Shown here piece by piece: positions 28,962-53,579 of a DNA stretch of 64,000 nt (position 1 is its first letter; each line of letters starts with the position of its first letter). The stretch spans positions 2,046,001 through 2,110,000 of the forward strand of contig OY101115.1 in assembly GCA_956465555.1 (NCBI GenBank), written 5' to 3'. The stretch is from Nitzschia sp. pyKryTriq1. Taxonomy: Eukaryota > Bacillariophyta > Bacillariophyceae > Bacillariales > Bacillariaceae. The position numbers were made by a program, and so were the translations under genes. Under the pieces are notes generated by a model. The model did not search any database. It was not told where the DNA came from and worked only from the letters and a program-made list of their open reading frames with translations.

Positions 28962-30933
28962 ATGACTTATCTGCAGACAGCCAGTGCCCATGGGCAGCAG
29001 CCGCTTTTGCTTGATAAAGCAAGCGAACAGGGACCTCGGTCATCACTGAGTGAAAGTGAAATGTACAGGAGAGTCTTTCGTGTGCAGGAAGCAACACGAC
29101 CAGAAGGCTTGGATGGCGTCACAAGTAGTAGTTCCATTTCTGTGAGTTCCACGCCACCCAAACAACTCGCACCAGTTTCCCCAGGCCCGGCCGCTATAGT
29201 TGCTGAAGGTGAGCTTGAGTCTTCCTCTTTGAAGAAGGCCCTCCCTTATATTCCACCGCATGCGGATTACACCATTATCAAAGGGAAATATGAAGCTGCC
29301 TATCACGTCGCCACTCTTGAAAAGGAGCAAAGTCCTCGACAGGGGAAGTCAAACAAGAAGGAGGCCTCGGATTCTGCCACGGTACAACAAGCAAGCCATG
29401 TCGGTACCACCCGCAGTCCAGCGTCCCGGTCGAACGGAAGCAAAGTACTTGCAGTGGCGGAGTGGACTTTTCCAAAAGATGATCAAGGCAAGGAAGCGAA
29501 TGTTGATAAATGGGCTTTCATCAAGTCCGAGGTTGCAAAGGGCCGCGACGTTGACTTTCGCCCGACACCCGCTGGTGCTTCCTACCAAGTTCCAATGCCC
29601 GCTAGACAAGGGCGGAAAAGAAAGAGTCGAGGTCCCATACTACTAGATGAGCAGGGGGACCCCATCTGGAACTCGCTCGTACAAGATGTGACGTTTGACT
29701 CTCGTTACTTGCAGTATGATAACTCGCCATACGGATTCTTGGATCAGCTAGTGCAGCCATCTGTGGTTGTTGCGGGTGCTACTTCCGAAAACTCGGATGT
29801 CTTGGACGAAGAATTCTTTCAAACCATTCCGGACCCACCGATCAACTTGACCAAGACATCGAGAGTGGGTGCGTGTTTTCAGGCAAGAGTTTGCCGTCAT
29901 ATGGGGGACTATCACGACAAACGAAACGCGGACTATCTTCCGGAGTAAGTTCAATGCACATTTTTTGTTTTTTGCGCTGCAGTAAACCACTAATCCAGTC
30001 ATGGTTTTTATTGTGTGTCCAATCAAAAGATACGAGACGCTGTGGGACCCAGTCCGTGCCAACGAAGCTGAGAAGAAAGGCCAAGACATTGACACATTTC
30101 TATTGAGCCACAATATGCCATTATCAGAACGAGAGATGAAAATGAAGCTACTTCATTTGTGTGGCTATGATGTGGCACAGGCGCAGGAGGAATACAATCG
30201 AATCCAAAGTTTTGGCTGGGAGGAGGACAACACATGGACTGACAACGAAAAGCTGAAATTCAAAGACATTCTGCAAAATGCAAGCCGAAAAGATTTTGCA
30301 GCCTTTGCGAAGCAGATGAAGCGAAGCCGAGCGGATTGTATGGTTCAATACTATCAGTGGAAGCGCAAATCACGCTCCTACGCCGAAACAAAGAAGAGGT
30401 GGAAGCACTGGCGCCAAGACGCGACTAAGAACGATTACTGCAGCGTATGTGATGATGGAGGGGATTTGTTGGTTTTGTGCGACCGATGCGACGACGCATA
30501 CCATCTGAGTTGTTTGAAACCTGCGCTGAGTGCAATCCCCACAGGCGACTGGTTTTGCCCAAAATGTGTTGCAAAAAAGGTTTCCCAACAAGGTGGGTAC
30601 ATCACCCTTGCCCCGCGTAGCTCTCCGTCGTCAAAGCTGTGGGCTTCTCCCGGACGAGTTGCAGCACTTGGCAGAGAAATGAAAAGAGAAGGTCAAGACA
30701 AATCGCAAGCGCCACCGCGTACGCTTTTCCCCTCGGTCTCTGGTTCATTGGGGCAAGAGGGGGGCGTAGCATCGGTGCCGGGTAATAGTCCTGGCGCTGC
30801 AGTATCATCGGGATCGCATCTGGGTCACAGCATGATACATTCAAGTCCGGGACGAGAAGAATCGTCCGCTCGGATTTCCGTTGACTCGCCATTCATCCTT
30901 TCGGACGATGAGTCGGAGGCCGCTGATGTCTAA
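28962..30933 (+). CDS. ELM2-SANT-PHD chromatin protein
   Basis: Exons 28962-29944 and 30030-30933 give 628 aa with an 85-nt intron (GTAAGT, CAAAAG). An ELM2-type domain spans the junction: SRVGACFQARV near 302-312, then NADYLPEYETLWDP and MKLLHLCGYDVAQAQEEYN. A SANT domain follows at about 393-445 (TWTDNEKLKFKDILQNASRK, then CMVQYYQWKRKS). A PHD finger lies at about 464-507 (CSVCDDGGDLLVLCDRCDDA, then HLSCLKPALSAIPTGDWFCP with a final Cys pair). In animals ELM2-SANT pairs recruit and activate class I histone deacetylases, and this PHD class reads unmodified H3K4 or similar marks, so I infer a corepressor subunit. Residues 1-300 are Ser/Pro/Lys-rich with no known fold. The adjacent arrangement of all three domains in one protein is less common. 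Confidence 0.87.
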
Positions 30934-35492: not shown

Positions 35493-36437
35493 ATGACACT
35501 TGTGAAACTAAGTGCAGGAGGTCGTCCAGCAGCCAGCCGAAAAATGCAGCGCTATTCGTTACTGAAAACTGTGGGTGCTGTGCTGTTGACCTTGGGTTTA
35601 ATCGCAGTTTTGTTCCAGAATGATCCCTTCCCTGGTGTGCGCAAGGCCGCGATGCGACATCGACGACAAGCCGAACTGCAGAGGGACTTTCGGAACCCAG
35701 AAGGCGAGGAAGTTGCGGATGCAGGTGCGACGGCGGGTTCGGGAGACGAGGGAGGAGATGCGGAGAACAAGCATCAGTTGGAAGATGGGGGTCGAATCTT
35801 TACTTTCGAGCTAGAGAGTCTCACCGATGGCGGAAAAGGAAAGGTTGTCATTGAAACCAAACCATCATGGGCTCCGCTAGGTGTTCAGCATTTCCACGAG
35901 CTGATGGATGCTAACTTCTACGATCAAGCCAAATTCTTCCGCGTGGTGACAGATTTTGTCGTTCAATTCGGCATAGCGGCGAATCCCGCAAACAAACGAC
36001 CGCAAGAAATTCAGGACGACCCTGTTGTTCAGACAAATGCTCGAGGTACACTGACCTATGCGACTTCTGGGCCCAATACAAGAACGACTCAATTATTTAT
36101 TAATACAAGGAAGAACGGAAATGGATCTTTGGATAGACAGGGATTTGCTCCGATAGGAGAAGTAATCAGGTACGTCTTGTTCCGCGCTTTTTGTTTCGTC
36201 GAGAGAATAGCAACCAACACTGACCTTTTTCAACCGCACAACGCAAATAATAGCGGGATGGAGTTTGTCGATGCGATCTATGCTGGATACGCACAAAGGC
36301 CCGATCAGGGGAAGATCCAGCGGCAGGGAAATGCCTATCTTGATAAGGAATTTCCTCTCCTATCGTACATTTCGAAAGCGTACAAAGGGGAGGTAATGGA
36401 AGGCGCGGCCGACGGCGAAGAAGAAAACAACAACTAA
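35493..36437 (+). CDS. Membrane-anchored cyclophilin-type PPIase
   Basis: Exons 35493-36169 and 36254-36437 give 286 aa. Residues 24-41 (LKTVGAVLLTLGLIAVLF) form a signal anchor after a short basic N-terminus, so I infer a type II protein with its domain in the ER or Golgi lumen. The cyclophilin domain covers about 105-270: FELESLTDGGKGKVVIE, WAPLGVQHFHELMDANFYD, FFRVVTDFVVQFG (the FR and Q of the active site) and QLFINTRKNGNGSLDRQGFA, then GEVISGMEFVDAIY across the junction. The usual GMxxG signature is altered, so isomerase activity may be reduced. The 84-nt intron is a multiple of three with no stop, so its retention would only insert 28 residues. The start is the ATG at 35493; the upstream TTG frame is ignored. 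Confidence 0.85.
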   Translation: MTLVKLSAGGRPAASRKMQRYSLLKTVGAVLLTLGLIAVLFQNDPFPGVRKAAMRHRRQAELQRDFRNPEGEEVADAGATAGSGDEGGDAENKHQLEDGGRIFTFELESLTDGGKGKVVIETKPSWAPLGVQHFHELMDANFYDQAKFFRVVTDFVVQFGIAANPANKRPQEIQDDPVVQTNARGTLTYATSGPNTRTTQLFINTRKNGNGSLDRQGFAPIGEVIRYVLFRAFCFVERIATNTDLFQPHNANNSGMEFVDAIYAGYAQRPDQGKIQRQGNAYLDKEFPLLSYISKAYKGEVMEGAADGEEENNN

Positions 36438-36519: not shown

Positions 36520-39500
36520 TCAACCCGCCCCACCTCTCTGCGGCATTGCGTGGCTCTGTCCATGACCCAGCTTTGCCAAGATCCACTCCGAGCTAAAATG
36601 CTGCGGCATGTCAGCCGTGTTGAACATGCTTCCTCCCCAGGTAACGCAGCGATAATAGCTCTCCATCGCTGCCGTCAGTTCAGAGTTGGACTTCCACGGA
36701 GACGTACTCTTAATGTACTCCAGCACCTCGATATGATTTCGAAATTCCGTGCCATCGTTGGAACGATCTGAATTCTGGAAATTCTGGTCTGATCCCAGAG
36801 CGGGCGTTGTATCGAGCGTAACGTACATGTCAGCTTCTGCCCCGGCTTCTGTTTTCGAGAGTTGAAGTCTATCCCAAAGACGCGCATAGAAAGCGGTTTG
36901 TGCTCCCGGACGAATGTTGCTCTTCTGTTCCCCATGAGTGCCCCTGGCTGCCGCCATTCTCTCCTTAATCTCACTGCTTACCAATGGGCACCTGGCAATA
37001 TGTTTGTCAGCCGAAGTTGCTGTAGTGCTGAGGCTCGCGACGTTCGAATAGAAGTACTTGCCCTCGCCGGTACTGCCCAGGCAGTGACGACAAACAAGAC
37101 CAGGCATACCCATCGTGAGAAACGAGCGTCTACCCTTGCCGCGTATATCCTCGCTTGTTGCTTTGCAGGCAATCATTTGATCCATAACTGTGTTGACGAA
37201 ATCAGTCAAGTCGTTTCGATCCGAAGGAAGCACGATCTCCTTGAGGTTCGCGGACATTGGCTTGTTCTTCGAATTACCGTTGCCGTTCTTTTCTTTCGCC
37301 TCTCCGAGACGAGAAACAATGAATTTTGGAAATTCATGGTTCATTTCGTACTCTTCTCGAGGCAATTGAAAGGAAGGGGCAAACATTTGTTGTCGATTTT
37401 CCACAAGGAAGTTGATTAGCTCCGTGACTACACCGGTGGTGTTCTCCACTTGCTGAAGAGACACATCAGAGTGATTCAACATCTTCGGCAAGATTAGAAG
37501 CAAACGCATCAGATGGTCGCAGTGTAGACTGTCCCTCCATAAGGCTCCTTCCTCCAGGACGAAATCCTCGGTTTCTGTGTCATACAACAGCGCAGGAGCT
37601 GCGGTCTCAAACAGCGTCGCAATGTGCTCGACAATCTTCTTGATCGAATTCTTGGTATCCAAATTGTTGCTGTCAAAACTCTGCTCAAAGGCCCGCAATG
37701 CCTCTGATACTGTAGTTGCAGTTGATCGTTCGTTGTCGCCTTCGTCCATGGCAGCACAATTGACAAACATTTTCTTCGCTTGTTTTGGAATATAACCAAG
37801 CCCAAGCTCGGCAGTTTTTCTCGCAAACTTTCCACGTTGTATCGCTGCCTCCTGCTTCAGCATACGTGTTCGGCTTGTATCCTTCTTCTTACCAGGGGGC
37901 GAATATGTTACCGACGAGGGTAGCTCCCCTGCTTCTAGCTTCCATTTTGCTTGCTTTAGCACTGGCCAGACGATGCAAAGGAAAATGGGCTCTGTGTTCG
38001 GCTTGTAATCCACCGTAGCAGTAGAGTTGAAGAGAATATCGGGAACAGCTACTTTCTCCTCAACATGCTTCGCTGCTCGCCTTACTAAACTGAAACGAGT
38101 TATCTCCTTCCCGCCCAGAGCCTCCCTGGCAGAATCGAGTAGTTTCTCTCGCAGATCTTTAAGCATTGACATCCCTTCAACTGCGATGTTGGCAACTCCG
38201 CACAAAGCTGCACTCTCGACGACCGCGAGGATTTGCGTTCGTACATACCATATAATATCAATTTTTGCTTCAGCTGCTCGAGCATCGTCCAAGCTCCGGA
38301 AGTCTGGAGCAGAACTGTCCCTGCCTTCTGTAGCAAGAAAGAACCACTCGTCTTTGGCCTCTAGCTCGAACTCGGGCTCACCACAAAGTGCCATGGCATC
38401 CCGGTATCCCTGGTTAAGCCTTGCCTTGAGATACCCCGTGGTTGGAAATACGTTGGACGAGTGAGAAGTGTCTCCCTTGCATCTCAAGGAAATTTCAGCG
38501 AGAGCTGCTTGATCATGGACCCCAGAGCATTTTAATAAGTTCGCGACTGCCTGAGAAATCAATGTTCGAAGATCAACAACAAGGCGTTCCTCCGACCAAT
38601 AGTCTTCGAGCCCTAAACTGAAGTTCGAAATTAGGCGAACGGTCTCTCGAAATAGTCTGTCAGCCATTGGGCACCACATCTCTTGGCTCGTCCAGAAGCC
38701 TCCAAAGTTACCCGAGAGGGACTCTGCCATCAATTCGTTTTTGCATTCCGAAAGAAGAAACGGTTGGACATCCTTCGACCAGACAGGATGACCACGCAAA
38801 TCCTCCATGACCTTCTCCTGCCAGAGTGGTTTTAAGGCGACAGCTGGGAAAACGTTCGTCTTGATCTCTTTCTGAAGCGCAGAAATGATTCTCAGAGCTA
38901 CCCAGTGCATTCTCCTCCGAGCGACAGCAAGATCAGCTACGTACTTCGAGTCGACTTGAGTCTCTTCACTGTCCTTTTTCTTCCTCTTAAATGTTTTGGA
39001 TACGTCCGCGTAAACGCTTTTCCCGATGTCATATTCCAAGAAGTCAATAAGACCCCTGAGATCGGTAGCGTGCAGAGTGTTGATGTTTTCTTCGATCCAA
39101 CTCCTTTGACCTGCATCTAAATCTTGCCCGAAAAGCGCTTCTGGGGCGGCAGGGAGGAAACGTAGCTCCACCGTCTGTCCTTTCTCCATCGGGTGTGCAA
39201 TGTATAGGAAGGATTTCTTCCCACCTTCCACTCGCCTCTCAAAAACATTCCACGGAACGCCTGCATCATGGGGTTGACTACAGTCACCTTGAAAAATGAA
39301 AGTTTTGAGCACCCGTTGTATAGCAAGCAATGCTTCTTTTAGACGACAAAAGAATGAAGAAATATGAGGTTCAGTTGGAGCCGGCACTTCCCATCCCGCT
39401 TTTATGAACTACTCATAGCGTACCTTTACGAGACGATGACACCACACCGTATCTCCCGACTTCGATTAACCCACTTTCCTGGGAGCAGAAGGGTTTCTTT

Positions 39501-39658
39501 TCCGTTGGTACGATGGAGAAAGTTTCTTTAGTGTCCTCTGAGACAGGTAAACTGCGGGTTTTCGTCTGGTGTCGTTCGAAGAGGGAGCTCGCTGGAAGGG
39601 CTTTATTGGAGACCTTCGCATTCATATTCCCTAAATATGTGAGGTAGGTAGATGCCAT
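36520..39658 (-). CDS. C-terminal half of large C2HC-finger protein
   Basis: As a stand-alone model: exons 39658-39424 and 39335-36520, 1016 aa, with an 88-nt intron whose acceptor (TCTAAAAG) and phase 1 fit exactly. The long helical body shows no known enzyme motif. Near the C-terminus (37115-36960) is GMPGLVCRHC followed about 30 residues later by DKHIARC, a C-x2-C...H-x3-C zinc-finger pattern; similar GLPGLVCRHC fingers are, to my knowledge, common in diatom proteins of unknown role. The start ATG lies only 29 bp after the stop of the upstream block (39688-43754), far too close for independent promoters. A splice from 39797 to 39631 joins the two in frame, so this is probably the 3' part of one 2306-aa gene rather than a separate gene. 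Confidence 0.7.
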
Positions 39659-39687
39659 GGATTTATCGTATGAGCATTTCCTTGAAG

Positions 39688-42600
39688 TCAGCTCGAAGAA
39701 AAATGTATCCTTGCCTTTATGTATGGTAACACTGGAGTGAGAATCACGAACAGCTCACTAGGGGGCATATCCATACCTACTCGGCTGTGATACTTACCGC
39801 TGTCCACACAAAAATTTCTCTTTGGTCCTCCAATGTTGACCTCTTGAAGCGCTTGGCGACTCGAACTTTTCACAGCTTTAGCCAGAGGAGTGGGTTGTGG
39901 TTTATCTTCTGGAGCAGCTGGGGGTTTAGCTTGTGGCGTCTCTGGTGGCATAGCTTGCGGACCATGCTCTGGTTGATCGACGCTGGTTTCTTCCTTTCGT
40001 CGCCGCCTCTTGAGTTTCTTACCAGCGTTACGTCCGGCATTCAGAGTCACAAGCTCACCTTGACCACTTTCCTCGGCAGCTTTTCGCACGATGGCTTTCC
40101 ATCCACTGATGGAAGCTACCGTTCCCAGACCTTTGAGTATAGGCATGTCGTTATCTTCGCGATACTTACCGAAAGCATCTGCAAGATATTTTGTTTTGGC
40201 CGCAAGGAAGCCCTCAGCGTCTTGGATATTGATAGAACCGAGAAACTTCCTAGCCATTCCCGACAGAGCTTCAATCGGATTGGCAAATTTTTTGGTCTCT
40301 GTTTTCTTCGTTTTCTCGACAGATTTTTTTGATCCAAGCTCCACCGTCTTTTCCGTTTGCTTTTTCGGTTTTTGGCCCTCCTCTATCTCAGCGAGTTCCT
40401 TTTTAACTCGTCGGCACCATTCATAGACAAGCCGAACGCACGAGCTGGGCTCACAAGACCCGCTAGGTACACCGGAAAAGTCTCTGCGCATCTTTATGAT
40501 AGCATTGACTATTGGTGAGGTTAGTCCTTTGTCAGCGTCCAGCAGCTTTTGTGCCGTTGTAATCCCCACAGAAGCTAAGACGTTCGTCGTCTCCTTTTTG
40601 ACCAAAACACTGGCAAGAAATTCTTTTGATTCGAGCGCCGCCTGCATCTTTGGTGATACAGCCGGTACAAGAGGTGCCGGTTTCACCTCTGGGGGGGTTC
40701 CCGGCGTCTCGGGTTGCGCTTTCTTGGCCACACTCGCCTTTGTACCAGCCTGAGTCGAAGGAGGACCCACGGACTCAGATGGGTCACGTTCAACCGTTTT
40801 CAGGAGGTCGGCATTCTCCAAAACGCGACCATCACCCTTTTCAAGATCCATGGCATCCTTCACCAAAGTTTTCCACGAAGATATCATTGCAACTTTACCG
40901 GTCCCTCTCAAAGGCTCAAGATCCTTCGTGTCCCTCCAATCGCTCAGCATATCGGCCATATCCTTTGTCCTTCGTTTGATAAAAGAAGAATCGAATATTT
41001 TACAGTAGTCGAAGAGAAAATCTTTCGCCTGCCCACTGAGCATGGCCAGAGGCCCCCCAAACCATTCTCGATCTTCCTTGCCGGGGGCAGGAAAAGACCC
41101 GATTGCAAGTTCCAACCGCATCCCGACGGCGAGAAAGTGCTTCGCGATGGTACCAGCTGTGCCGCCTACGAGGCCGCATTTTTTGCGCCACAACGCATAC
41201 ATGTCAACTACAAGTCCCGTCTCTGTCCTTCTGAGACTCAAAAAGTCCATTGCAGTTTGAATATTAGCTGACGCAAAGAAATTCAAAGTGCAACGGGGAA
41301 TCAGACAGGAGAGTGCGCCATCGAGTAGAAACTGGTTCCTGGTTCCGAGGCGGTCATTTGATGGGTCTCGGTTCCGAACTTTTCCGGACCACAGTTCCAG
41401 CAACCTTTCGGCAGCTTCTCTTGAAGTTGTTCCTGATTTATCCGGAGAAGGCTCGTGGACGGCGGGACCTGGTGAGCTTTTGACAGCAACTTCGGGGGAG
41501 CTAGACTCAGCCGTCGCCTTCTCCGCAACATCAGTCGATTCATCGTAATCTTGCCGACTCGCATCATTTTTGGGGGTAGATTTCTCACTTGGTGAATCAT
41601 TAACATCGATTCTTGTAGCTGCTGCAGCGGCCAGCTTGGCATCTGGAGAACTAGAGTCATTTACTGGAGAAGCCTCCGACTTCACCACCGCTTGTTCCTC
41701 CTCCTCCTCCTCAGCGCTCGCCGCTTTGTCTATTTTATTGTTGGAGGATGCAGTCTCAGAAGCTGTTGTAGCGGCCAGCTTGGCATCGGGGGGTAAAGAA
41801 CAAGAGTCATTCACTGAAGAAGTCTCTGACTTAACCACCACATGTTCCCCCTCCTCAGCATTCGCCGCTTCGTCTTTTTCATTGTTGGAGGATGCAATCT
41901 CAGACGAATCGCGGCAACTGTTATCTTCCTTTAGAAAATCGGAAGACATGATGGCCTCGATCAATTCGTTTCGAAAGCTCGCTGCTTTGCCCTGCTTCGC
42001 GTGTAGTACGGTCTCCAGTTGTTGAAGCGACACGATCCACATTTTCTCTGCGAGAAACCGGCAATCCTTTTCAGGGAGAACTTCCATTAAATCAGTCTTT
42101 CCAGAGAGTAGGCTATTCGTCGATTCCTGCTCTTTCTTCCCTTTGTAAGTTTTCTTTAATGGTCTCGTTTTCTTTGGCAATTTGGTCTCGGCAATGGATA
42201 CTACGGTTGGGGGCACCACTTGAGGATGCGGAGCCAATATCGTCTTAGGTGCAGACCCGAGGATTGCAGCAATTAGATCAGGGCGTAGCGAAGTTGCGGC
42301 GGGGGGAGCTGGAGACGCCTTTTTCAGGGTTGAAATGTCGAAAGATTCGTCCTCGTCCGCATCATCGAAAATTCCCTGCCCATCCATTCTCTCTTGATTT
42401 GATGGGACCTGCTGTCTGGAAGAATCATGCAAATGTATTTTCTTAACAGAGAGAGACTTTTCGTTTTTCTCGGAGGCAGCAATGTTCTGCTGTTGGTCCT
42501 GGTCCTGGTCCTGTGAGGATTTACTATTTGACGAATCTTCCCTACGACTCGCTGCTTCAACAGGATCGGCCGACGAGGAGATGGCTACCAAGGGAGTGGC

Positions 42601-43754
42601 CGCGATCGTTGTTAGAATATGTGCTGCGTCTTCTCGCTCGATCAAGGTGTCAATCGCAGCAATTCCTTGCAAACTGCAAACCTTTTTCTTTGCTTGGTCA
42701 TTCGTCGAGAGCTTCGCTTCGAGCGGTGATCGCGGACGCTTCTTCGCATCTGGGGGGTATTTGATTACCTTATCCGTTTCTTCACGTTTGATCGAATTCG
42801 TTTCTTCACGTTTGATCGAGGGACCTTTGGCGATCCTCGAGTCTTCCGGATCACGCATTCTTTTTTGTTCGTAATCTTTCGCTGAGAGTTGGTCGTCAGT
42901 TGGTGATCGCGAGCGTTTCTTCGAAGCCGATTGGACTGGTGACTGTTGTATTGTAGTGTTCGCCGTAGTTTCCTCTTGCTTGATCAACTTATCCTTGATG
43001 GGTGCCGACTCGAAAGAACTTACTTTTTCGGAAGGCTCGTCGCCCTGTGCGTGCTTCCTCTCTGAGGGTATCTCGTCCTCCTGTTTCATGTCTACTTGTT
43101 GTAGTTCGATTGGGGGAGGGATCGATCTATTCGACGAGTTCCTTTGTTCTTCCGTGGAATTGTCGGCCAGCTTGATAAGAGACATCTCCTGAGAAGAGAA
43201 CGTGACTGCATTGGTCGCAAATTCCACAGAAAGAGTAATGGCACCTTGTAAGTATATATAAACAAAGATTGGACACCCCAACACCCTCGCATAGATTACG
43301 CACCTGGTGGAACATGGACTATTACTCGCTCCTCGTCACTAGGCTCTACTTTTGGAGCTTGGATTTCACTAGAGAAAGTAGTCGAAGAAGCAGCGGGTAC
43401 CAGAGGAGTAGTTTCGTGTTCTTCGGGATTTGCCTTTTCAGCTACAGTCGGTGGACTTGAATCGGAGACAAATGCTGTTCTAGCTAGTACATCAGGAACC
43501 TGAGGAGCAAGGTTTTGTTGTTGAGCACCCCGTTTCTCATCAGGAAGAGTGGTCGCAACTGGGTCAGTGACCCCTTCTTGGTCATCGTTTGATGACTGCT
43601 GGCCAGGGGCAGGGCTAGGAACAGGACTGCTAGTACCGGTAGTCGTAGCATTGGTCGCTTCCGGTGTAGTATCGCTTCGAGATTCTTGGGGTACCCCCGA
43701 CTCCTTTTGTTCTTCACCCACAGCTCCACGTGGCCCTTTACTGGTAGAATCCAT
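39688..43754 (-). CDS. Large helical-repeat protein, probably N-terminal part of fused gene
   Basis: Exons 43754-43304 and 43244-39688 give 1335 aa if read to its own stop; the 59-nt intron is phase-consistent (VPPG joined to AITLSVEF). The first 700 residues are disordered and acidic, with Lys-Glu motifs (IKREE, LIKQEE, VVKSE) matching the SUMO-acceptor pattern and a 45-residue tandem duplication. From about 770 onward helical modules recur: LSGQAKDFLFDYCKIFD with KVAMISSWKTLVKDAMD, and LSGMARKFLGSINIQDAEGF with TVASISGWKAIVRKAAEE, two clear copies plus weaker ones. A strong donor (GCG then GTAAGTATC, 39798/39797) near the end suggests splicing either internally (66 nt, in frame) or onward to 39630 in the downstream block. 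No enzyme domain recognised. Nuclear location is inferred from composition. Confidence 0.7.
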
Positions 43755-46373: not shown

Positions 46374-48200
46374 TCACACGCATCTCCGCTTGGAGTCTCC
46401 GATGTTCCAGTAATGCATCGCAGGTAGCTCTTCAGTCAAATCTTCCTTCCATCTCCCCCCATCGAGAAATAGCTTTGTTGAATCAATGGGCAACCAGGAG
46501 TCTTCCCTTTTACCCATCCCGTCAAAACGAACACGGACATGCTCATCTCTGATTTCCAAGATGGACCCTGCAAAACATTCTTCATCCTCTTCCTCGTCTT
46601 CTGAAGACTCTGAATTTCTAGAAGCCCCATCGACTATTGCCGGCACAATGCACAACACACGAGTAGCGGGACGCAAAGACTTTCGACTTCCCGGTTTGGC
46701 CAGATGCCACACTTCTTCTGGAGTCTTTTGTCGTTTCTTTGAGCCCTTGGCTGCAGTCTTGAGTTTTTTCGCATGGTGAGGAGTCATAACTTCGACCCAG
46801 AAAGGTTTACGCTTTGAATGCTGTGTTTCGGCATCTTCCTTTTGCGATTTGCTTGAAGGACTACCCAACTGTCTATCATCGTTACTTTCCTTCCGCCTCG
46901 CTCTCAATCGAACTGCCCAATCCCTCCACTGTATTCGCTTGGATTGCTTCACTTCCTTTTCATATTGAAGCAGTAATCTTTCGAATTTCCCCATATCTAT
47001 TCTCACCGAGTCGGGCCGACATAGGCATATCTTCGCGAGTCGACCGTAAGGGACCCATTCTGGTACAGCGAAATTTGTTGCCTCGGCGACATTGAAGCCC
47101 GTGTTGAAACCAAAGTGATAACTCCCCGGGAATGTGATCATCGCATCACCGGGGTATTGGACAGTGGTGGTGAATTTGATCCCGGCCTTCTTCAAAATCG
47201 CTGGTGAGATCAGGGCTCTCTTGTGTCGCATGTATTCTGGACAGCCGTTCTTCGCTTGATGATAATGACCCTCGCAAAGCTGCTCCAGACGCTGCGCATC
47301 CTCCCCGGCAGCAACAGCATACCAAACTTTCGGGGCTCCCGCATGTAGATAGTTGATCGAAAGCAAATTCATGTCCTCGGTATGGGCGCAGAATACTGAT
47401 GCCCACATTCCAAAATAGAGATATGGAGTTGTGACACCGGGAATCCCACCTTGATGATCGTCCGGTTGATCACTAAGAAGTAGTTCTAAACAAGAGTGAA
47501 GCTGGGAAATATTCCAACCACAGCAGTAGTCGCTCTTCTTGAACAGAGTGCCTTCCATATCTGCCCCATACAAGGCCGGCTGCATTGTAGGCCCAAGTCG
47601 TTTCCAAAACTTTCTCTGCAACATATCGATCGAAGTCTCACCCGCTTTCGCTCCTACTTGCGATTCCAAATATTCATCTGCCATTTCCCGATACTCTGCA
47701 ACAGACACGGGCGCTAGATCTAGAAAGGTGTACTCGTAAATTCCTCCAATACCCCGTAGCACTTGCTTGATAGGTGACGGCAGCTTCATATCCCCCAGTG
47801 TCGTTCCCGCTGCCCATTCTGGCCCTCGCCCAGTAGGATCGACGCCCCCACTATCCACAAATCCCTTTGGAAGAGAAACTTTCGCCATTCCGTGACGATA
47901 AGGGGTAGGACGTCTCTGAATAATATCTCGAGCCGGTGGGAGTGCTGTTTTGGAAGAAGAACTTGGACTGGACGAGGATTCGTTCCCAGAAGCGCCGTTT
48001 GCGCCTCTCACTACTTCATCATCGTACGTTGGCTCAGCGCTTCGCAGCACTCTCTTGCGGACGTAGTCCGAAAAGGTAGTGGACTGCAACTCTTCCAGAG
48101 TAGGTTTGTGGTGACTGCAGGGTTGCGGCCACTGAGACTTGGTCTTGCAAAAATACGCGGCTTCTTCCAGCACCTGACGATCACGTGCGTTGGCATTCAT
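46374..48200 (-). CDS. KDM4-like JmjN-JmjC histone demethylase
   Basis: Single-exon protein of 608 aa. The JmjC core (about 225-400) closely follows the KDM4/JMJD2 layout: TPYLYFGMWASVFCAHTEDM with iron ligands His273 and Glu275, YLHAGAPKVWYAV, ITFPGSYHFGFNTGFN with His362, and LAKICLCRPD. Cys320 (NGC), Cys392 and Cys394 match the structural zinc site of KDM4. A split JmjN is suggested by KPTLEELQSTTFSDYVRKRV and HGMAKVSLPKGF, with a Ser-rich insert between. KDM4 enzymes use Fe(II) and 2-oxoglutarate to demethylate H3K9me3 or H3K36me3, so that is the inferred reaction. The C-terminus has a Tudor-like segment (FAGSILEIRDEHVRVRFDG, then DSWLP). ATG at 48200. It is one of three chromatin-type proteins in this window. 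Confidence 0.92.
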   Translation of the reverse strand: MNANARDRQVLEEAAYFCKTKSQWPQPCSHHKPTLEELQSTTFSDYVRKRVLRSAEPTYDDEVVRGANGASGNESSSSPSSSSKTALPPARDIIQRRPTPYRHGMAKVSLPKGFVDSGGVDPTGRGPEWAAGTTLGDMKLPSPIKQVLRGIGGIYEYTFLDLAPVSVAEYREMADEYLESQVGAKAGETSIDMLQRKFWKRLGPTMQPALYGADMEGTLFKKSDYCCGWNISQLHSCLELLLSDQPDDHQGGIPGVTTPYLYFGMWASVFCAHTEDMNLLSINYLHAGAPKVWYAVAAGEDAQRLEQLCEGHYHQAKNGCPEYMRHKRALISPAILKKAGIKFTTTVQYPGDAMITFPGSYHFGFNTGFNVAEATNFAVPEWVPYGRLAKICLCRPDSVRIDMGKFERLLLQYEKEVKQSKRIQWRDWAVRLRARRKESNDDRQLGSPSSKSQKEDAETQHSKRKPFWVEVMTPHHAKKLKTAAKGSKKRQKTPEEVWHLAKPGSRKSLRPATRVLCIVPAIVDGASRNSESSEDEEEDEECFAGSILEIRDEHVRVRFDGMGKREDSWLPIDSTKLFLDGGRWKEDLTEELPAMHYWNIGDSKRRCV

Positions 48201-50714: not shown

Positions 50715-53579
50715 TCAAACGAGGGCTGGGATCTTCATGACGTCAGGGGTGAAATATTTGCCAGCAGGGTAGAGGCCTCTATAGGCAGCCTCTCTGCTTG
50801 GGTTATGAATCCCACAAAACCCAACTGGTATCTTAACAGTCTCCCTCGTTCCTGGATCCTTTCCAATTCGCCCATGCTTTACCTCGCAATCCAGCGCCGT
50901 AAGAGTAAAGCAGGCACAGTCTTTTTCGTCCATTTTCTTCGACATTTCCACTGGGTCGTCTGCGTTTGTTTGATCGTTGCTTGTCATTGGATCTGTTTCT
51001 ATCGATGCTTCGGTGAGCTTTCTCGACAACAATGCACACATAGGATGGAAATGGACCAGACATCGCGGTGCGGCACATTTCAGGATATATTCGGAAGGAG
51101 ACTTTGTAACTTCCTCTTCTGAATTCAGCGAATTTTGCCCCCATCCTTTCCCACACAAGGCGCACTCATGGATATCTTCCTCAGCATCTTCACTTGATGG
51201 TGGAGGTAGGCTTCCTTTCATCCAGACTCGACAAACCTCGTGAATCCATACTATGTCATTTCCAACTCTGACTCGGGACATCGCACCACCATGATATGGG
51301 CACGCGGCGCACTTTACTCCGTGGGACCCAACCTCTCCAAAAGAATATTCGGACTTACCCGCTAGTACCGGATCGTCGATGTGTGAGTCCTGGAGCCACT
51401 GGGGAGGCCTTGATCTCCGTCTGGACTTCTTGGCTTGATCATTGGATACGCCGGTGGAGGGGTCGCAGTTCCCCGCCAATGACTGCTGGGTGCTCTTGTA
51501 GGAACAGACTGCGCATTTCCAAGTGTATTCTGCTTCATCGAGATTGCTAGAAACCGGCTGTGTCTCTCCTTGATCATAACAACAACGTAGATGCGCACAC
51601 ACACCGCATTCAGAACACTCATACACCGGGGAGCTCTCATCAAGTTCTGGTGCCCAACAAACGGTGCAGCACAATGAATCCGACTCCTTCGCTGCATGAT
51701 TGAGACATTCGTGGACAGATGGAAGTGAAATGTTACCTGGTGAGGAGCAAATGACGCCAATCAAACCATTATTATCTGGCAAACATTCAGTAGTAGGATG
51801 CGACAGGGCCGAACGTGCCCGGGCCTTGCCGCGATCGTGGCCTGGTCTCGAAGTATCATTCAAAATATTCTTCACTAACTCTTCGTCGTCTAACATGCAA
51901 ACCGCCCGTGGATGTTCGTATTTGCTATCCGAAAGGCCTGAAGGGACGGCCACAGGGAAATTGCTGGAGTATATGTCATCGAGGGAGCCATCAGAACTGG
52001 ATACACTCCCGAAAATCTCGCCCCCTACGCGAAGAGCCAGCTTGATATCCCTCGGCCGTTTTTGACTAGCGCCTTCCAAACGAGCACCGGTAAGAAGTGA
52101 AGTGAAGAAGACTTTTTGCGGCATGTCATGTGGGCTTTTTTTGGTCCATATCAGTCGTGTTCGGCCGCAGCTAGTGCTCTTGGCATTTTTCCCAGTAGTG
52201 CTCGTGCTGGAGAGACCATGACGCCAATCATAGGTACCCAAATCATCCACGACTCGCTGCGCCTTCGTTGTGCTCAGATATCTACCATTCTGGACTTCCG
52301 AAGGCATTGTCGCTTCCAGCAACTTTCCATACCGCGAGCTCTTATCCATCTGAAGGTCATTGAATATTGACGACCTGCTACTAGATGAGTTCACTTTCAC
52401 CGAAATTAGTTGTCGCGTTGTGCAGCTGCGAACTTCTTCAATTTTCCTCCGTTTGGTTTTTGAACTATGCTCAAAGGAACGGAGCGAAATCTCGCCAGCC
52501 GGAGCAAAGTACTCATAAGATGATGCTGTATCTATTTCCTCTCCTTCTTTCTCGTTCGAGACCGAACGATCGGCATCTTCATGCTCTGGGATTGAAGGAA
52601 AACGAGGATGAAGTGGTAGGACAACCGAAGAGACCTCAAGCACCCCAGGATCATCGGAACGCCTTGATGCAGCACACCATGAGTCTGAAGATGTAGCCAG
52701 TCGCGTATTTAAAGGGCCTCGCCTCAGTTGCCCAATATCATATCTACCGAACCCCAGTGGACCCTCTTTGTAGGGCGTATAGAATCCATCATCCACCATG
52801 AGGATTTCCGTCATATCATCAATATCAAAGGGTAAGTTCCTAGCAACCGGGTTACTATGATGCATCCATGGCAATGCGAGAGGTTGAAGAATTGCTCGAG
52901 AAAGCCTAGTGGCGTCGCAAATAAGACTCCTCTGGTAGGATCGCTCATCCAGCATCGTCAACATAGATGCACAGGCATCGATATTCGACGAGGAACTTCC
53001 ATCAGCATTGTCGTTGTCTTCGCGCTCCGTTTCTAACAATTCTACGTCGCCATTTGATCCCTAGCAATCCGAGAGTACGGGTAAGACTGAGCCGTTTGGA
53101 TTGCACGGCGTAGCAACAGCTCCCTCTATACAGTAGTGTAAACTCACCTTCTCCGATCCCTGACCAAATTCGTCTTGATAGGGCTGCCTCGGCGTTTTAG
53201 TCCGAGTGGATTGACGTTTGACTGTTCCTGCTTTGGATGAACTCAAAATCTCATTTTTCATTTCTTCTGGTAAAGTTCGTTTTTCGCTACCACCACTCGA
53301 GCTTCGGCGAAGTAACCTTTTGGTACCGGTACCGGTACTTGCTGGTTCAACGGTACCACTAGGACCTGCTGCTAGACTAGAATCTGCGTCCTCAGACTTT
53401 GGGCTTCTTCGTTTTCTCGTAGATTGCCTAACGCCTCCGTTCGTGTTGAGCTCTGGTGTACCTCCCGACTCCCCGGCGCCAACATGATTCACTTCACGGT
53501 AAGTGTTGGTGGGAGTAACGTTAGTACCGTTAGTCGTCCCTGATGTTGTCCCAAGAATGTCAGTGGTTGGTTCGTCCAT
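50715..53579 (-). CDS. PHD/extended-PHD chromatin reader
   Basis: Exons 53579-53148 and 53060-50715 give 925 aa; the 87-nt intron is phase 0 (GQGSEK joined to GSNGDVELL). Residues from about 600 hold a tandem Cys/His array. The first PHD is CCTVCWAPELDESSPVYECS, then CGVCAHLRCCYD and WKCAVC. The second part is VKCAACPYHGGAMSRV, then WIHEVCRVWM, a degenerate finger HECALCGKGWG, and LKCAAPRCLVHFHPMCALLS, ending with FCGIHNP. This layout is the PHD, zinc-knuckle, extended-PHD module of BRPF/JADE-like readers, which bind histone H3 tails and DNA. The N-terminal third is Ser/Thr/Arg-rich; codons for a TGTGT run there are GGTACCGGTACC-type DNA, a rare intergenic-style repeat inside an exon. An additional 5' exon is possible (acceptor TTCTGCAG near 53620). 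Confidence 0.82.

Follow-up and report, generated by a model that had tools for sequence, protein, structure and literature searches.

A very large MRG-domain protein probably encoded by one gene across two adjacent open blocks in Nitzschia sp.

Introduction

Two adjacent coding blocks on the minus strand of a diatom contig raise the question of whether they are two genes or the exons of one. They lie in a 64,000-nt window of Nitzschia sp. pyKryTriq1 (GenBank assembly GCA_956465555.1, contig OY101115.1, positions 2,046,001 to 2,110,000). A TGA at 39690-39688 closes the upstream block, an ATG at 39658 opens the downstream block, and the gap is 29 bp, as the initial annotation stated. That annotation joined the blocks by a splice from 39797 to 39631. 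Retranslation of its four blocks (43754-43304, 43244-39798, 39630-39424 and 39335-36520) gave the proposed 6921 nt and 2306 aa, and the sole stop is the final one.

Indirect evidence, chiefly comparison with a paralog, makes it likely that both blocks belong to a single gene, but the comparison argues for a different acceptor. The preferred model has exons 43754-43304, 43244-39798, 39714-39424 and 39335-36520, with intron 2 at 39797-39715 (probability about 0.65; Table 1). The revised gene is 7005 nt long and encodes 2334 aa in an open, in-phase frame. ATG 39658 would be an internal methionine in it.

Table 1. Features of the revised gene model, in window coordinates
Feature	Position	Strand	Basis or remark
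Exon 1	43304..43754	-	Start ATG and acidic low-complexity N-terminus; frame and splice letters
Intron 1, 59 bp, GTGCGT...ACAAG, phase 1	43245..43303	-	Coding score as low in 0 of 800 coding stretches
Exon 2	39798..43244	-	Holds the helical modules, a low-complexity region and the basic stretch
Helical module copy, marginal, aa 534-587	41935..42096	-	Module comparisons
Helical module copy, aa 792-863	41107..41322	-	z 5.4 with 40393-40611, z 4.3 with 40069-40281
Helical module copy, aa 880-951	40843..41058	-	z 22.1 with 40069-40281
Helical module copy, aa 1029-1101	40393..40611	-	z 5.4 with 41107-41322; P 0.076 with 40069-40281
Helical module copy, aa 1139-1209	40069..40281	-	AlphaFold2: five helices, best pLDDT 89.9
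Basic stretch KKLKRRRRK	39994..40020	-	Sequence
Degenerate middle domain common to C6 and C5	39163..39831	-	Span takes in introns 2 and 3
Intron 2 (revised), 83 bp, GTAAGT...ATAAAG, phase 1	39715..39797	-	Junction comparisons with C6
5' part of exon 3 (revised model); intron in first model; holds ATG 39658	39631..39714	-	
Exon 3, portion common to both models	39424..39630	-	Coding score; C6 alignment
Intron 3, 88 bp, phase 1	39336..39423	-	C6 phase-1 candidate intron at matching place; not settled by coding score
Exon 4 with stop	36520..39335	-	Frame, splice letters, coding score
W-x2-L ... PPG motif common to C6	37882..37968	-	Sequence comparison
MRG domain (PF05712)	37378..37719	-	Pfam profile
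C2HC domain, multi-copy family, C-x2-C-x26-H-x3-C	36859..37263	-	Family alignment

The junction between the two blocks

The donor (GCG followed by GTAAGTATC) and the acceptor (CACATATTTAG) were located where the initial annotation placed them. Long open frames elsewhere, 130,819 nt in all, contain GTAAGT 8 times, so the donor is more than chance; two further copies in exon 2 (43023 and 40169) make the local rate higher. The in-phase match, offered as further evidence, is no more than chance: the splice is one of 118 GT-AG joins that reconnect the two frames, and phase alone therefore proves little. Seven in-phase acceptors are available to donor 39797 (39715, 39631, 39601, 39592, 39538, 39526 and 39460). 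The downstream frame contains no ATG from its last stop (39757) to 39658, and thus any coding that precedes 39658 requires a further exon upstream.

Two relatives in the same genome allow the junction to be compared: C6 (G000 C6:472881-477464), a divergent paralog of the downstream half, and C5 (C5:419818-422211). The downstream half matches C6 over a stretch that runs from the middle domain as far as the PPG motif (global z 9.0, 200 shuffles). The junction match with C6 was spotted by eye before being tested. The peptide created by the 39797/39715 splice matches C6 both before and after the splice point (score 44, z 6.5), and this join is the top-scoring of the 94 in-phase joins compared with C6. 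Against a 75-residue stretch of C6 its score was reached by 1 of 3000 shuffles; against the longer domain, by 3 of 3000; with BLOSUM45, by 0 of 3000. A repeat of the test gave 0 of 3000. The score of the 49-residue test was reached by 3 of 1999 peptides from the window. Two weaker tests gave 9 of 1000 shuffles (whole C6 block) and 26 of 2000 (two-sequence profile). Against C5 the junction was not significant by BLOSUM62 (578/3000) and weak by BLOSUM45 (58/3000). In a MAFFT alignment, for which the ends of all three sequences had been cut beforehand, this gene lines up with C6 and C5 without a shift in register. The acceptor at 39715, ATAAAG, is not pyrimidine-rich. These comparisons support the 39797/39715 splice but do not prove it.

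Coding potential was scored with a cross-validated measure in which 800 stop-free non-coding stretches were set against coding stretches. The score of exon 3 is reached by 1.3% of the non-coding stretches, and 14.9% of the coding ones are as low or lower. In an earlier, cruder scoring, exon 1 has 41.5 bits in-frame and its remaining two frames are negative.

Two separate genes, the upstream one ending at 39688 and the downstream one starting at ATG 39658, would be an improbable arrangement. The ATG context (TCCATGGC) is acceptable, and the genome is compact, with a convergent neighbour at 36437 only 82 bp from the gene. Searches turned up the helical modules in this gene alone, which leaves no further example with the two halves joined. 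The read-through from 39797 to 39691 may also be coding: the earlier, cruder score, which kept stops in its non-coding set and has been superseded, put it at 4.5 bits, just above the 99th percentile of that set. However, the 29-bp gap is very short, and the downstream protein would start inside a domain that reaches further upstream in both C6 and C5. A match to C6 runs through ATG 39658 (34 residues, 10 identities, reached by 2 of 2000 shuffles; P 0.0033 with a longer target). The 19 residues upstream of this ATG, taken alone, give no signal (P 0.83), and a global alignment puts the stretch elsewhere in C6. In the same window, two overlapping carnitine acyltransferase blocks split one Pfam profile between them, which indicates that adjacent blocks can be one gene. 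A Pfam-based base rate for such cases yielded 0 matches in 10 blocks scanned, and the carnitine acyltransferase pair is the sole case of a profile divided between blocks. An XRN pair gave no Pfam match for its second block, and its intron was identified by eye.

Regulated retention of intron 2 is compatible with the preferred single gene, and we consider it unlikely to about the same degree as separate genes. Splicing would yield the long protein, and retention a 1335-aa N-terminal protein ending at 39688. The read-through is open to that stop, but its cross-validated score leans non-coding (5.4% of coding stretches are as low or lower, and 26.5% of non-coding stretches reach it). A study of Phaeodactylum tricornutum reports intron retention as prominent, and gives 194 merged gene models, a mean intron of 142 bp and a mean intergenic region of 307 bp (PMC5859163).

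Least likely is a single gene with the splice of the initial annotation (39797 to 39631, a 167-bp intron, 2306 aa) or another in-phase acceptor: the frame is open and in phase, ATTTAG at 39631 is an acceptor of the more usual YAG type, and the coding score for 39714-39631, when read in the downstream frame, does not decide the matter (13.1% of coding stretches as low or lower, 19.1% of non-coding stretches reaching it), but this intron would be about twice as long as introns 1 and 3 and the junction has no clear resemblance to C6 (score 25, P 0.14 by BLOSUM62). In shuffles, its score was reached 493 times in 3000 against C6 and 1251 times in 3000 against C5 (BLOSUM62), and 139 times in 3000 against C6 by BLOSUM45; the latter matrix gave P 0.044 for the N-terminal part of C6 and 0.20 for a longer target. 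The acceptor 39631 is thus probably wrong. The proposal of one gene has indirect support.

The 39424/39335 join of intron 3 agrees with C6. There, a candidate intron that keeps the frame and is likewise of phase 1, chosen by us among several in-frame joins, lies at most 2 residues from the matching place. The end of exon 3 and the start of exon 4 together align with C6 at a score of 48, reached by 0 of 3000 shuffles (GLIEVGRYG against GFIDIGRYG).

Architecture of the predicted protein

The architecture, initially described as unrecognised, is now partly accounted for by the C6 paralog and by an MRG domain that had been missed. The MRG domain scores 30.4 bits in a Pfam scan of the 2306-aa model (curated cut-off 22.8) and 34.5 bits in a genome search. 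Profile positions 51-184 of 190 are matched, and the first 50 are unmatched. Compared with an MRG gene on C2 of the same genome, the raw score is 102 (z 16.6). The domain is shared with MRG15, Eaf3 and MSL3, and among solved chains an Eaf3 (8i02, E 0.0036) is the best match by sequence. In contrast to those proteins, here MRG is one part of a product of about 2300 aa that also has helical modules, a C2HC domain and a degenerate middle domain. The Pfam scan, which covered the 2306-aa model (28 residues shorter than the revised one) and whose filters drop most weak matches, returned no chromo family to E 10. This genome yielded two further MRG genes, both shorter and with an N-terminus that looks chromo-like by eye. 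A literature search found nothing on MRG15 in diatoms or on MRG domain architecture in stramenopiles.

The C2HC finger noted near the C-terminus belongs to a family in this genome. In an alignment of 10 rows that we chose from 23, the gene keeps C58, H60, C61, H88 and C92 together with FYARLWDR; membership was defined by invariant C-x2-C ... H-x3-C and an F-[FY]-x3-W-x-R-like end. A scan of 10 members with Pfam returned no family, the best E against PDB profiles was 0.34, and 8 pattern matches in viral contigs were not confirmed.

The helical modules are repeated, as first described, with pairwise z up to 22.1, and the protein has four or five. The doubtful copy at 41935-42096 fell below P 0.01 in one of four comparisons (with 40393-40611, P 0.007); a further module score was circular and was left out of the evidence. 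The module at 40069-40281 has a confident best AlphaFold2 model, and three of the five models reach only pLDDT 66-68. Foldseek returned E 1.4 or worse throughout. Most top-ranked matches were proteins that we take to have SAM or helix-hairpin-helix (HhH) folds (the RadA/RAD51 N-terminal domain, the Pol theta helicase domain, and the SAM domains of LEAFY and Caskin). The likeness is that of a small all-helical fold; the module differs in having no match with E under 1. By sequence, nothing in the PDB was significant (best E 0.089).

Genome-wide searches, which score only the best candidates, found two copies at E 0.001 with a single module, both in this gene, and with 543 aa one other, weak match to E 10 (E 0.09), which involved the sequence following the last module. 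Fifteen ten-kb loci around C2HC paralogs held no convincing module (best domain E 0.4), and of 55 pattern matches in prokaryote genomes and 8 in viral contigs none was confirmed. C6 lacks a convincing module (best profile E 1.1, nearby). So does C5, where the best E of 0.034 falls short of the inclusion threshold and the match lies in a frame of 53 codons that is not the gene's.

The acidic, low-complexity N-terminus has a parallel in C6 that speaks for a single gene. Residues 1-780 of the fused model have a net charge of -39 and a disorder-promoting fraction of 0.66; in C6, 705 acidic residues (net -31, fraction 0.67) precede the middle domain in the same open frame.

C6 and C5 share the middle domain (E 1.3e-9 in a small comparison) and, unlike this gene, have no MRG or C2HC match at their loci. 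C5 carries CXXC fingers, whose 25 bits narrowly miss the Pfam cut-off. By motif order the middle domain looks SET-like to us, an impression only: neither C6, C5 nor the three-way profile had a Pfam or PDB sequence match to SET, and the middle-domain profile had no match in the PDB. In this gene the domain lacks most of the segment best shared by C6 and C5, and it is probably not catalytic.

Possible function

The domains suggest a probable nuclear, chromatin-associated scaffold. Elsewhere, MRG domains dock partners of acetyltransferase or deacetylase complexes, and the MRG domain here would dock such a partner. Self-association or DNA contact would fall to the SAM/HhH-like modules, with the C2HC domain adding a second contact. 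The basic stretch KKLKRRRRK is a possible nuclear localisation signal. The [VIL]KxE sequence is a SUMO-attachment motif, and aa 1-780 hold 5 copies (0.98 expected, P 0.0026); the acidic N-terminus could carry SUMO at these clustered motifs.

In animals and fungi, MRG occurs in a small chromodomain-MRG subunit. A more speculative and rather doubtful idea is that a diatom lineage evolved a giant chromatin hub by fusing a chromodomain-less MRG, a multi-copy C2HC domain, tandem SAM/HhH-like modules and a decayed domain of a second chromatin-type family, with complexes assembled by module self-association. If confirmed, the architecture would be a new kind of MRG protein, and it makes testable which complex a chromodomain-less diatom MRG protein joins. 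A gene prediction stopping at 39688 or starting at 39658 would split the protein and obscure the fact that its MRG domain is part of a very large polypeptide. The analysis also brings to notice a multi-copy C2HC domain family in a diatom. In keeping with a diatom, the same genome has 8 matches to PF03842 (silicon transporter; best E 6.9e-266) and 72 light-harvesting matches.

Gene structure

The two adjacent minus-strand blocks probably form one gene (probability about 0.8), as the initial annotation proposed. A match across the junction to C6, a paralog of the downstream half in the same genome, argues for this reading, as does the downstream reading frame (frame B), which would require an upstream exon if it codes ahead of 39658, exon 2 being the only one at hand. 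The same evidence favours 39715 as the acceptor of intron 2, a fairly likely placement that gives a model of 7005 nt and 2334 aa. The gene model is thereby usefully corrected and an MRG protein of new architecture is added, but the system itself is not of a new kind.

Coordinates of the gene, its relatives and its neighbours
Feature	Position	Strand	Remark
Exons, revised model	43754-43304, 43244-39798, 39714-39424, 39335-36520	-	intron 2, 83 bp
Exons, initial annotation	43754-43304, 43244-39798, 39630-39424, 39335-36520	-	intron 2, 167 bp
Middle domain	39163-39831	-	common to the gene, C6 and C5
PHD-finger gene	30001-30930	+	within about 10 kb of the MRG gene
JmjC gene	46377-48200	-	within about 10 kb of the MRG gene
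Block with PHD-like match (just below Pfam cut-off)	50718-53039	-	within about 10 kb of the MRG gene
C6 paralog	C6:472881-477464		
C5 relative	C5:419818-422211	-	798-aa frame

Splice signals

The four exons first proposed lie where they were placed, sum to 6921 nt and translate into 2306 aa without internal stops, and 29 bp do separate the stop at 39690-39688 from the ATG at 39658. The donor is GTAAGTATC, and the acceptor of that model ends in ATTTAG. A good donor where a frame ends carries information: across the 130,819 nt of the other long frames, GTAAGT is present only eight times. Exon 2 contains two additional copies. The copy at 40169 (-) sits within a clear helical module and is therefore probably coding; the one at 43023 (-), in low-complexity sequence, could be a donor. 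In-phase rejoining holds for the proposed splice but carries no weight as evidence, since 118 GT-AG pairs rejoin the two frames, seven of them from the same donor. By a cross-validated coding score, exon 3 is coding, 39797-39691 leans to non-coding and 39714-39631 falls on neither side; an earlier, cruder score placed 39797-39691 higher, slightly above 99% of the non-coding stretches used with it.

Comparison with the C6 paralog

C6 was a weak first match (E 0.4) in a genome search with the downstream half. Its 580-aa open frame aligns locally with that half at E 2e-5 (two-sequence BLAST). Upstream lies a 947-aa frame, in which 705 acidic, low-complexity-type residues (net -31) precede the region used in the junction test. 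Once C6 is joined at a phase-1, in-frame candidate intron, its alignment with the downstream half in the window reaches from the middle domain as far as a PPG motif (global z 9.0, 200 shuffles). Intron 3 of the window gene is also phase 1, and the two intron positions, after GRYG, are at most two residues apart.

The middle domain in C6 runs further upstream than the start of exon 3 in the initial annotation. Frame B upstream of ATG 39658 prolongs the match, in an ungapped alignment of 34 residues that runs through the ATG and has 10 identities (score 37), a score reached in 2 of 2000 shuffles (P 0.0033 against a longer target) and by 3 of 1999 window peptides from six frames. The 19 residues preceding this ATG give no signal on their own against C6 (P 0.83), and global alignment places the stretch upstream of it against a different part of C6. 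Frame B has no ATG from TGA 39757 to 39658, so coding upstream of 39658 would require an upstream exon.

Splicing donor 39797 to acceptor 39715 brings in the end of exon 2, where GGPKRNFCV aligns collinearly with GLPGRKFTV of C6. This junction, noticed by eye prior to testing, scores 44 (BLOSUM62; z 6.5, 1 of 3000 shuffles) and ranks first among 94 in-phase joins. Unspliced read-through scores 21 (P 0.55) and the join to 39631 scores 25 (P 0.14), which makes the originally proposed acceptor probably wrong. On repetition, 0 of 3000 shuffles matched the 39715 junction, compared with 493 of 3000 for the join to 39631. The score of the 39715 junction was met by 9 of 1000 shuffles when the whole 947-residue C6 block was the target, and by 26 of 2000 in a two-sequence HMM. 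Against the C5 relative, this junction lacks significance under BLOSUM62, where 578 of 3000 shuffles match it, and gives a weak result under BLOSUM45 (58 of 3000).

Domain architecture

The initial annotation overlooked an MRG domain, which exceeds the Pfam cut-off. Three genes in the genome have MRG matches; the other two have an N-terminus that is chromo-like by eye. The window domain aligns with that of the C2 gene (z 16.6) and more weakly with that of the C7 gene (17 of 1000 shuffles). Other MRG domains bind partners from acetyltransferase or deacetylase complexes. Together with a basic stretch and an acidic tail, the MRG domain leads us to infer a nuclear scaffold that would be tethered to chromatin complexes.

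Residues 1-780 form an acidic region (net -39) with many disorder-promoting residues. They contain five [VIL]KxE motifs, putative SUMO sites, against 0.98 expected from shuffles (P 0.0026); two of the five lie within a tandem repeat. Four of ten helical module pairs are similar at P <0.01. Two modules are clear (z 22.1 between them), 792-863 and 1029-1101 are supported (z 5.4 with each other; 792-863 against 1139-1209, z 4.3), and 534-587 is marginal (z 3.6, one partner). One module is predicted to have five helices. Of its five models, two have a confident pLDDT of about 90 and the other three only 66-68. A module model had no significant match in the PDB, the top matches being mostly HhH- or SAM-domain proteins.

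By motif order the middle domain resembles a SET domain, an impression that searches of Pfam and PDB with C6, C5 and a three-way profile did not support. C5 and C6 have the domain in common at E 1.3e-9 in a small comparison and 8.1e-6 in the genome search. The window copy lacks most of the segment best conserved between them, and its activity therefore appears unlikely. The C5 frame also carries WTFYF motifs (by eye) and two CXXC-like stretches just below the Pfam cut-off; it is another chromatin-type architecture.

A search with the C2HC domain gave 18 further matches with E no higher than 1, and for 11 of these E was 1e-10 or better; the counts are of places, some of which share one gene. 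Ten members scanned gave no Pfam family below E 0.02 and no Pfam match above cut-off. Some paralog loci have two or three related domains per frame, of two types by eye.

Genomic context

The genome comprises 40.65 Mb in 20 contigs, the window being C1:2046001-2110000. Its eight silicon transporter and 72 light-harvesting protein matches identify it as a diatom. Several chromatin-type genes are grouped around the MRG gene. Elsewhere, three equal-score match pairs, all offset by almost the same distance (1.137-1.142 Mb), link C1 at about 4.28-4.58 Mb with C3 at about 3.14-3.44 Mb, which suggests that a segment of about 300 kb is present on both contigs through duplication or assembly.
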